From: Lolliginicoccus suaedae
GTDB lineage: Bacteria > Actinomycetota > Actinomycetes > Mycobacteriales > Mycobacteriaceae
Direction of reading: 5' to 3'
Assembly: GCF_008312885.1 (NCBI RefSeq)
Contig: NZ_VSSO01000002.1
Location: forward strand, 62,001 to 126,000
DNA length: 64,000 nucleotides
Positions within the stretch are counted from its first letter, which is position 1. Each line of letters begins with the position of its first letter. A program made the position numbers and the translations under genes. Below, piece by piece: positions 6,708 to 9,058 of this stretch. The notes beneath the pieces were generated by a model that worked only from the letters and a program-made list of their open reading frames with translations, did not search any database and was not told where the DNA came from.

Positions 6708-8102
6708 CTACCCTCGCGCCATATCGACGAAGCGGGAGTAGTGAAGCTGGTGGGCGACAGTGATGGTGGCCGTGGGGCCCGCACGGTGCTTGCCGATGAT
6801 GATGTCGGCCTCGCCGCCGCGAGGGTCGTCGGGCTCGAACGCATCAGGGCGGTGCAGCAGGATCACCATGTCGGCATCCTGCTCGAGGGAACCCGATTCG
6901 CGCAGGTCGGAGACTTGGGGCTTCTTGTCGGCACGTTGCTCGGGACCACGGTTCAGCTGGCTGATCGCGATGACGGGGACCTCGATCTCCTTGGCGAGGA
7001 GCTTGAGGCTGCGGGAGAACTCGGAGACTTCCTGCTGCCGTGATTCGACCTTGCGCCCGGAGCTCATGAGCTGCAGGTAGTCGAGCACGATCAGTTTGAG
7101 GTCGTGCTTCTGCTTGAGCCGGCGGGCCTTGGCACGGATCTCCATCATGGTGAGGTTGGGCGAGTCGTCGATGAACAGCGGCGCTTCGCTGATCTCGCTC
7201 ATGCGGCGGGCAAGCCGGGTCCAGTCGTCGTCGGTCATGCGACCGGACCTCATGTCGGCGAGCTTGATCTTCGATTCGGCCGAGAGCAGTCGCATGACGA
7301 TCTCGGTCTTGCTCATCTCGAGCGAGAACACTGCGCTGGCCATGCCGTGCTTGATGGAGCACGAGCGCAGGAAGTCCATTCCGAGCGTGGATTTTCCCAC
7401 GCCAGGCCGGGCGGCGATGATGATCATCTGCCCCGGGTGGAGGCCGTTGGTGAGCTCGTCGAGCTCGACGAACCCGGTGGGGACACCGAGGGACATGCCG
7501 CCGCGGGAGGCGATGGAGTCGATCTCGTCCATGGTGGGCTGCAGGAGCTCCTCGAGCGCGACATAGTCCTCGGTGGTGCGGCGCTCGGTGACCTCGAAGA
7601 TCTCCGCCTGGGCGCGGTCGACGATGCCTGCTACGTCTTGCCCCTCGCTACCGTTGTAGCCGTACTGGACGATGCGGGTGCCCGCTTCGACGAGGCGGCG
7701 GAGGATGGCCTTCTCGGCGACGATCTCGGCGTAGTACCCAGCGTTGGCGGCTGTGGGCACGGTCGAGATGAGGGTGTGCATGTAGGGCGCGCCACCGATG
7801 CGCCGGAGATCGCCACGGCGCTCGAGCTCCGCAGCGACCGTGACCGGGTCGGCGGGCTCGCCGCGCGCGTAGAGATCAAGGATGCAGTCATAGACATCCT
7901 GGTGGGCCGGGCGGTAGAAGTCGCCAGGGCGCAGGCGCTCGATGACGTCAGCGATGGCGTCCTTGCTCAGCAGCATGCCGCCCAGGACGGCTTGCTCGGC
8001 GCCGAGGTCCTGGGGTGGCTGGCGGAAGTGGTCGTCGCCGGGACCGTGATCGCCGGTGGAGCCGTGGTCGCTAGTGCGTGGTGCCCGATCGTCCGCGGCC
8101 AC
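6708..8102 (-). CDS. dnaB: replicative DNA helicase DnaB
   Basis: This 464-residue hexameric helicase unwinds DNA at the replication fork. The N-terminal DnaB domain spans about residues 30-130 (PPQDLGAEQAVLGGMLLSKD). The RecA-like motor has Walker A ARPGVGKST near residue 230, the Walker B region LIVLDYLQLM, and AISQLNRG and SDLRESGSLEQDADM towards the C terminus. No intein interrupts these motifs, unlike in some mycobacteria. The gene is separated from rplI by a strong terminator and about 500 bases containing a DnaA-box cluster, so it is transcribed on its own. Confidence 0.97.
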   Translation of the reverse strand: MAADDRAPRTSDHGSTGDHGPGDDHFRQPPQDLGAEQAVLGGMLLSKDAIADVIERLRPGDFYRPAHQDVYDCILDLYARGEPADPVTVAAELERRGDLRRIGGAPYMHTLISTVPTAANAGYYAEIVAEKAILRRLVEAGTRIVQYGYNGSEGQDVAGIVDRAQAEIFEVTERRTTEDYVALEELLQPTMDEIDSIASRGGMSLGVPTGFVELDELTNGLHPGQMIIIAARPGVGKSTLGMDFLRSCSIKHGMASAVFSLEMSKTEIVMRLLSAESKIKLADMRSGRMTDDDWTRLARRMSEISEAPLFIDDSPNLTMMEIRAKARRLKQKHDLKLIVLDYLQLMSSGRKVESRQQEVSEFSRSLKLLAKEIEVPVIAISQLNRGPEQRADKKPQVSDLRESGSLEQDADMVILLHRPDAFEPDDPRGGEADIIIGKHRAGPTATITVAHQLHYSRFVDMARG

Positions 8103-8247
8103 TTGGTGCCTCCTGTGGGTGGTGCTAGCTCAGCGCGGCGTGGGTGCCGCGTTCTTGTTGTACCGCTTTGGTCCGACGGTTGCGAGGGTGTGCCGCGTGT
8201 CGGTTTCGCGGACCCGGACGAGTCTCAAGTGTCACGTGAGAGTTACC

Positions 8248-8549
8248 TGTGCACAGTTCTGTGCATAACCCTGTGGATAGTTGGGCATATCTTGTGAACA
8301 ACCTGTGGACAGTTTCGAGAGCAGCGAGCCACCTCTCTCAATAGAGCCAGCTCAGACACGATTTTTCGGCTGTGCACACTGTGGACAATGCTGTGTACGG
8401 CGTGTCGCCAGATTGTGATTCCCGGCGTGTCGCAACGTGTGGTGCGTTAGCTGTCCATGCGCTATTTGCCGGCCCGCCACCTTCGCGTGGCCCTGGATCG
8501 ATCTTCCGGCCTGCCTCCCCAGAGTTATCCACAGGCACATTGTGGATAA
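8248..8549. promoter_or_regulatory. cluster of DnaA boxes upstream of dnaB
   Basis: Five nonamers match the DnaA-box consensus TTRTNCACA exactly: minus-strand TTATGCACA at 8260-8268, TTGTTCACA at 8293-8301, TTGTCCACA at 8380-8388 and TTATCCACA at 8541-8549, plus a plus-strand TTATCCACA at 8525-8533. Three more have one mismatch (8248-8256, 8272-8280, 8304-8312). Starts at 8248, 8260, 8272, 8293 and 8304 are spaced about one or two helical turns apart, which favours cooperative binding. No gene is visible in 8103-8605. The cluster lies 146 to 447 bases upstream of the dnaB start. Confidence 0.75.
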
Positions 8550-8554
8550 CTACA

Positions 8555-8593
8555 CGTCTAGCCCCAGGGGTCAGGGACCCCTGGGGCTAGACG
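8555..8593 (-). terminator. rho-independent-like hairpin after rplI
   Basis: A perfect 17-base stem (CGTCTAGCCCCAGGGGT and its complement) with a 5-base loop lies 12 bases past the rplI stop. There is no long T-run, as is common in high-GC actinobacteria. It should end the rpsF-ssb-rpsR-rplI transcript before dnaB. Confidence 0.8.
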
Positions 8594-8605
8594 CTACGTG
8601 CTGTG

Positions 8606-9058
8606 TCAGGCAGGCACGATACTGACGTTCACACGGGCTGACACCTTGGGGTGCAGACCGACAGCGATGACGTACTTGCCAACCGACTTGATGTGCGCTG
8701 AAGGCATCTCGACATTGCGTCGATCCACCGTTGGGCCACCGGCCGACTTGATCGCCGCAACGATATCCGATGCTGCGATCGAGCCGAAGAGCTTGCCACC
8801 CGCTCCGGTGCGAACCGGAATCGTGATGGCGCCGATCTTCTCCAGCGTCGCCTTGGCTTCCTCGGCGATGTCAAGGTCGCGGGCAGCGCGCGACTCGCGA
8901 GCCTTGCGCAGCTCCTCAACCTGCTTCTCGGCGCCACGGGTGGCGCGGATTGCGAGTCCTCGCGGAAGCAGGTAGTTACGGCCGTAGCCGTCCTTGACCT
9001 CGACAGAGTCGCCAGGAGCGCCAAGGTGCTCAACTTCAGCGGTGAGGATGAGCTTCAT
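8606..9058 (-). CDS. rplI: 50S ribosomal protein bL9
   Basis: The 150-residue protein begins [36 protein letters not shown], the highly conserved L9 N-terminal domain that binds 23S rRNA. A long central helix (about residues 45-80) and a C-terminal domain with [13 protein letters not shown] complete the full-length protein. It is last in the rpsF, ssb, rpsR, rplI cluster and follows rpsR by 19 bases. A hairpin terminator follows it. Confidence 0.97.

Follow-up and report, generated by a model that had tools for sequence, protein, structure and literature searches.

The question raised by this stretch of the Lolliginicoccus suaedae chromosome is why a dense row of DnaA boxes lies in the spacer between dnaB and rplI, outside the origin of replication (oriC). 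DnaA is the protein that starts chromosome replication and DnaB is the DNA-unwinding helicase. The window, by which we mean the whole 64,000-nucleotide stretch that was analysed, carries the following features in and around this spacer.

6708..8102, minus strand: dnaB, the replicative helicase gene, 464 aa with a GTG start; Pfam PF00772 and PF03796; AGGAGG at 8109-8114 in the sequence.
8157..8178, minus strand: degenerate PafBC-type promoter-like site, CGTCGG-N10-TACAAC; the strict pattern failed in all four genus members.
8248..8256, minus strand: one-mismatch DnaA box CTGTGCACA, which is conserved box E and adjoins the -35 element in relatives (sequence and alignment).
8260..8268, minus strand: exact DnaA box TTATGCACA, conserved box D (sequence and alignment).
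8272..8280, minus strand: one-mismatch DnaA box CTATCCACA, conserved box C (sequence and alignment).
8293..8301, minus strand: exact DnaA box TTGTTCACA, adjoining box B (sequence and alignment).
8304..8312, minus strand: one-mismatch DnaA box CTGTCCACA, which aligns with conserved box B.
8371..8379, minus strand: one-mismatch DnaA box GTGTGCACA, seen in the sequence and abutting the 8380-8388 box.
8380..8388, minus strand: exact DnaA box TTGTCCACA, which aligns near the TCCACA block 3' of the direct repeat.
8399..8430, minus strand: direct repeat ACACGCC-N18-ACACGCC, 25 bp from start to start.
8525..8533, plus strand: exact DnaA box TTATCCACA of the distal pair, facing the 8541-8549 box; retained in three of the four genus members.
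8541..8549, minus strand: exact DnaA box TTATCCACA of the distal pair; three of the four genus members retain TTATCCACA or TTGTCCACA.
8556..8592, minus strand: long hairpin 3' of rplI, a probable terminator, kept in the genus and shorter in relative G002.
8606..9058, minus strand: rplI, ribosomal protein L9, the upstream neighbour of dnaB; Pfam PF01281 and PF03948.

The spacer thus holds five exact TTRTNCACA boxes (starting at 8260, 8293, 8380, 8525 and 8541), as the earlier note had counted within about 300 bases, together with four distinct one-mismatch boxes, all of the minus strand, one more than the three given there; three further one-mismatch matches overlap the listed boxes or an exact box on the opposite strand. 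Start-to-start spacings across the spacer are 12, 12, 21, 11, 67, 9, 145 and 16. The spacings of 11-12 and 21 bases that had first drawn attention fall in the proximal array, five boxes on the dnaB-sense strand at 8248-8312 with steps of 12, 12, 21 and 11; upstream of it stand the two abutting boxes at 8371-8388 and, beside the rplI hairpin, the inverted pair at 8525-8549. The Pfam domains of both flanking genes bear out the placement of the cluster upstream of dnaB.

The density of boxes at this site is exceptional for the genome. The 64-kb window has six exact boxes, where shuffled sequence averages 0.72 and never has more than three; the genome as a whole (G000, 3.47 Mb in nine contigs) has 67 exact boxes against 11 matches to the reversed pattern. 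At the genome-wide rate, a given 310-bp segment would hold five or more exact boxes with a probability of about 6e-14. Taking the exact-box cluster beside dnaA as oriC (G000:C2:129421-129643, just 3' of dnaA at 127748-129382), the densest 310-bp windows in the 240 kb around it are oriC with eight exact boxes (overlapping sites merged; nine unmerged), the dnaB spacer with five and three places with two. With one mismatch allowed, the densest windows of these 240 kb hold 13, 9, 4 and 4 boxes, and the reversed pattern reaches a maximum of three. The genome-wide count that the earlier note had called for extends this ranking, since the exact-box list of the whole genome nowhere exceeds two per 310 bp besides oriC and the dnaB spacer; the similar clusters at many unrelated loci that would have spoken against the idea are not there. 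The dnaB spacer is the genome's densest exact-box cluster after oriC, and lies about 59 kb from it, in agreement with the earlier estimate of more than 55 kb from an origin next to rpmH-dnaA. GC skew along G000:C2:1-240000 is very weak, with no clear turn at oriC, and was set aside around oriC and dnaB as too weak to locate an origin.

The places with two exact boxes form a short list: the rpmH-dnaA spacer (G000:C2:127642-127662), a spacer beside crgA (PF06781; 150723-150744), the spacer of a DUF4328 gene near sodA (189458-189541), a divergent spacer beside a HAD hydrolase gene, and two more. The rpmH-dnaA and crgA-side pairs correspond to DnaA sites mapped in M. tuberculosis, the latter to Rv0010c-Rv0011c, crgA being Rv0011c. 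A third possible counterpart, of the M. tuberculosis Rv3843c site, is the DUF4328 pair near sodA. At G000:C2:344674-344700 two exact boxes lie in the divergent spacer between the HAD hydrolase gene and an open reading frame that has no Pfam match and that resembles the septum-site gene ssd; in mycobacteria the 6C small RNA sits at the counterpart of this spacer. Two more exact-box pairs, at G000:C3:508506-508544 and G000:C4:183831-183857, are found near the starts of open reading frames or inside them.

A DnaB match was found in all 61 genomes searched (own included), of which 59 were used after dropping G048 (partial) and G059 (weak). In 45 of these 59 genomes, the window's own among them, exact boxes occur no further than 700 bp upstream of dnaB. 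Of the named loci, for which the best 80 of the matches listed were taken, 64 show the same; the reversed pattern is found in one of the genomes and five of the loci, and the two sets share at least two species, L040 being G004 and L066 being G028. Outside the order, 40 genomes of 34 other families were picked by hand among the 113 that gave a match out of 118 in the class (one of the 40 yielded a short stretch only). An exact box is present in 23 of them and the reversed pattern in three, with totals of 42 exact and 162 one-mismatch boxes where the control gives three and 27; since the rows are related, none of these conservation counts represents independent events. Where rplI was recognised (43 of the 59), the spacers together carry 90 exact boxes; 100 permuted patterns averaged 0.56 matches and never exceeded seven, the reversed pattern matched once, and the 36.8 kb upstream of these rplI-bounded spacers contain no exact box. 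Within the genus, spacer identity to G000 is 85%, 81% and 62% in the three relatives. The earlier note had proposed aligning the spacer across related genomes, with a lack of conservation in sister species counting against the cluster; every one of the four genus members keeps boxes B to E in position, although the G002 spacer is only about 60% identical to the others, and boxes recur both within the order and outside it. The window's genus has a degenerate box A. The box array is real and old and, judged by its conservation, functional.

The same DnaB comparison gave a side observation on the protein itself. In several relatives the matches are split after about residue 240 and/or 408, e.g., in G008, G013, G024, G026 and G042, where they lie within long open frames of 816-1069 aa. 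Splits of this kind would be expected if inteins occupied two insertion points, and the window's own dnaB carries no such insertion.

The organisation of the region is best seen in relatives carrying the direct repeat. ACACGCC-N17..22-ACACGCC, on the dnaB strand, matches in 63 of 139 dnaB upstream regions, several of them with no exact DnaA box, and 59 of the 63 (four near-duplicates removed) were aligned; as only repeat-bearing regions were used, the consensus is conditional on the repeat. Read on the dnaB strand, it begins with CaACACGCC, about 26 bp, GACACGCCG, the TCCACA block and ctgAcCTGcg, continues with boxes A and B, a half-conserved box and boxes C, D and E, and passes into TTTG, about 17 bp and TA(A/G)CGT, a sigma-A-like promoter, followed in many rows by TGTCGG-N10-TA, which is the published motif of PafBC in M. 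tuberculosis (PMC8151990). The consensus of 24 Streptomyces regions has the same order (boxes, TTGGCT-N17-TAACGT, TTTGTCAGTG-N8-TA), with the ACCTG block inverted. Across the 139 regions the sigma-A-like pattern is present in 50, against four when reversed, and beyond the order in nine of 40 against none; the PafBC pattern TGTC(A/G)G-N10-12-TA, within 350 bp upstream of dnaB, is present in 81 of 139 against one reversed, and in 15 of 40 against none.

The distance between boxes and promoter is close to constant in these relatives. In a set of 177 regions (the 139 and the 40 less two duplicates, with boxes called by a permissive pattern), a sigma-A-like promoter preceded by a box-like site is present in 59. 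The end of the nearest box lies 7-8 bp before the -35 element in 35 of them, 18-21 bp in 16 and 5-6 bp in five, so that 51 of the 59 show one of the two main spacings; in the remaining three the distance is 1, 30 and 107 bp. The distance from the -10 element to dnaB is variable in the same regions, from 108 to 411 bp. All box ends taken together cluster at 7, 19, 30, 52, 63, 72-75 and 83 bp before the -35 (median 0 per offset), and the steps between them are much like the 12, 12, 21 and 11 of the window. In twenty Markov resamples the combination of promoter and box turned up in 1.0 region on average, never at 7-8 bp, and in the reversed regions it was absent. Of all the evidence, this fixed spacing in relatives points most strongly to an array that would serve the sigma-A-like promoter; many of the rows are related to one another and do not count as independent events.

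In the window's own genus the same promoter is not recognisable. Strict sigma-A-like and PafBC matches are both missing from the 350 bp preceding dnaB in all four members, and the fixed distance from last box to promoter that marks the relatives is not found here; a generic sigma-70 scan of 8000-8700, of a kind not suited to this bacterial group, returned no promoter. A degenerate PafBC-like site, GTC(G/A)G-N10-TA(C/G)AAC, is kept in all four. Because no promoter core was recognised next to the array, we infer its action in this genus. LexA-like boxes upstream of dnaB were also considered and put aside as too weak to claim (53 of 139 regions against 35 in the reversed control).

Profile searches extend the comparison to regions lacking exact boxes. 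A profile running from the TCCACA block to the -10 element, built from 57 regions with the window's genus excluded and mycobacteria included, ranks the dnaB spacer first in 240 kb (E 4.6e-13), followed by oriC (1.2e-12) and the DUF4328 spacer (0.005). It matches 71 of 122 upstream regions outside the build set, or 65 of 116 once the window's own genus and two duplicates are removed, and none of 179 reversed regions. An exact box upstream of dnaB is missing in 14 of the 59 genomes, 16 of the 80 named loci and 17 of the 40 regions outside the order; eight of the 14 genomes are nevertheless rows of the array alignment and the other six match the array profile, and of the 16 named loci seven are alignment rows, one matches the profile and eight have no match. 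A 46-row profile prepared without the named mycobacterial rows and G031 still matched 10 of the 12 named mycobacterial dnaB loci, in a test that is not fully independent since the remaining rows may include mycobacteria.

These mycobacterial loci connect the spacer to measured DnaA binding. Five strong DnaA sites were found in M. tuberculosis by IDAP-seq and again in M. smegmatis by ChIP-seq, one of them being the region upstream of dnaB (the Rv0057 region), and the DnaA variant I282T, which binds more weakly upstream of dnaB, uniquely under-expresses dnaB (PMC7738170). The statement in the earlier note that no such locus is commonly described in this order was thus mistaken. On position upstream of dnaB and profile match, which constitute the likeness between the two, the window's box array is homologous to the mycobacterial site; it differs in having five exact boxes in the spacer where each of the 12 named mycobacterial loci has none or one, and in that binding is measured there and predicted here. 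DnaA binding at dnaB being already known, the window's locus represents a homologous, box-richer example. The same source states agreement with Caulobacter crescentus, in which DnaA is likewise found at the helicase gene, in another phylum (PMC7738170, citing Hottes 2005); apart from this mention, the parts of it available say nothing of a box array, of promoter spacing or of conservation beyond mycobacteria. A literature search among open-licence papers gave PMC7738170 as the sole relevant one on DnaA at dnaB and found the breadth of the array, the promoter geometry and the repeat not described, and what appears to be new here is how widely the array is conserved, its fixed geometry and the co-conserved GACACGCC repeat.

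This GACACGCC direct repeat is co-conserved with the DnaA array upstream of dnaB. With the N18..21 pattern in 37 whole genomes, 20 of the 33 matches listed lie upstream of dnaB, in 20 genomes; as the 13 elsewhere resemble the 20 matches of the reversed control, the excess is located at dnaB. In the window's genome the dnaB spacer is the sole match, the reversed control likewise giving one. The entries listed by a literature search on GACACGCC among open-licence papers look unrelated. WhiA, which reads GACAC, is a lead for the reader of the ACACGCC repeat. MtrA was rejected as a reader of GACACGCC, as its published motif differs and dnaB is absent from the main text in the portion available (PMC6265350). 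The possibility of a leader RNA was dropped because RNAalifold on 59 repeat regions gave no structure on the sense strand, the opposite strand showing one weak helix (-4.7); an Rfam search of the spacer returned a single match, far below the gathering score and at the rplI hairpin, and no family fits.

Against this background, the spacer is in our view quite likely a DnaA-bound control region of dnaB, probably an activating one. The earlier note had offered a DnaA-controlled dnaB promoter, a relic or secondary origin, and a DnaA-titrating locus. The first of these has gained from the conservation, the fixed promoter spacing in relatives and the mycobacterial binding (PMC7738170), the origin has lost ground, and titration is possible as a side effect. 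As for the origin, the dense same-strand array, in part spaced 11-12 bp, and the fact that oriC itself is the second-best match of the array profile in 240 kb do give the spacer some resemblance to one. It contains no comparable AT-rich stretch, however, its lowest 60-mer having 45% GC against 27% at oriC. The usual oriC neighbourhood in this group, rpmH-dnaA-dnaN, is absent at the spacer, and a typical oriC with nine exact boxes adjoins dnaA instead (dnaA and the nine-box cluster at C2:127.7-129.7 kb). That the spacer is or was an origin is therefore highly improbable.

More weight attaches to a locus that titrates or resets DnaA, as datA, DARS and the Bacillus DnaA-box clusters do, that would time initiation at oriC and lie near dnaB by chance. 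Clusters near oriC reportedly restrain initiation in Streptomyces coelicolor (Smulczyk-Krawczyszyn and co-workers are said to have described them in 2006), and one of them, H24, could be the dnaB spacer, going by the cosmid numbering. Streptomyces spacers likewise contain several boxes. In Streptomyces and Bacillus, untimely initiation is repressed by DnaA-box clusters close to oriC (PMC5742627, PMC4585315), and those of S. coelicolor and Bacillus subtilis also lie outside but near oriC, being defined by their effects on initiation. The spacer offers what such a locus would need, nine boxes in a cluster outside oriC and about 59 kb from it, and among 23 single-contig relatives the distance between dnaB and dnaA ranges from 23 to 439 kb, with 17 of them below 150 kb (circular contigs assumed). 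Nevertheless, the array stands at a fixed distance from the dnaB promoter in relatives, a spacing that titration does not need, and boxes or array are still upstream of dnaB in six relatives where dnaB is 227-439 kb from dnaA (exact boxes in G010, G037, G039 and G053, a profile match in G054 and an alignment row in G033). We consider titration as the reason for the cluster unlikely. The sign of the control is a separate matter: DnaA could repress dnaB, as it autoregulates its own promoter (PMC7738170), and in the window's genus the boxes could overlap the promoter, since its core is not located. The boxes of the relatives, however, end upstream of the -35, and the mycobacterial variant with less binding has less, not more, dnaB expression (PMC7738170), so that repression is the more doubtful sign, and an improbable one.

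Returning to activation of dnaB by DnaA, the protein would bind the same-orientation five-box array at 8248-8312, helped by the boxes further upstream, and from there would set dnaB transcription, most likely as an activator touching RNA polymerase. In relatives the end of the last box is typically found 7-8 bp before the -35 of the sigma-A-like promoter, and a PafBC-type damage promoter often comes after it. For L. suaedae itself we infer the DnaA binding, the sign of the regulation and its dependence on the cell cycle or on ATP-DnaA. PafBC promoters are the RecA-independent promoters of mycobacterial DNA-damage genes, and their pattern is common upstream of dnaB in relatives, whereas the window's genus has only the degenerate form; the induction of dnaB by mitomycin C is partly PafBC-dependent (PMC8151990).

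Conserved as it is in many actinobacteria, the row of boxes most likely represents an old switch through which DnaA would set the supply of helicase. More tentatively, and as a possibility that we hold at less than even confidence, the rplI-dnaB spacer of actinobacteria may be one ancient composite switch for helicase supply, made up of repeat, block, array, sigma-A promoter and PafBC promoter. In such a switch the GACACGCC repeat and the TGACCTGC block would be bound by one or two putative factors, which together with the fixed DnaA array would fire the sigma-A promoter once ATP-DnaA is ready; with the PafBC promoter in tandem, helicase production would be coupled to initiation as well as to DNA damage. 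If DnaA does control dnaB through the array, the initiator and its partner helicase would be wired by transcription in much of a bacterial class, with a wiring geometry that is readable, fixed and testable in non-pathogenic laboratory species. It would also explain a peak in the mycobacterial DnaA binding map, and would point to a factor reading the GACACGCC repeat at dnaB.
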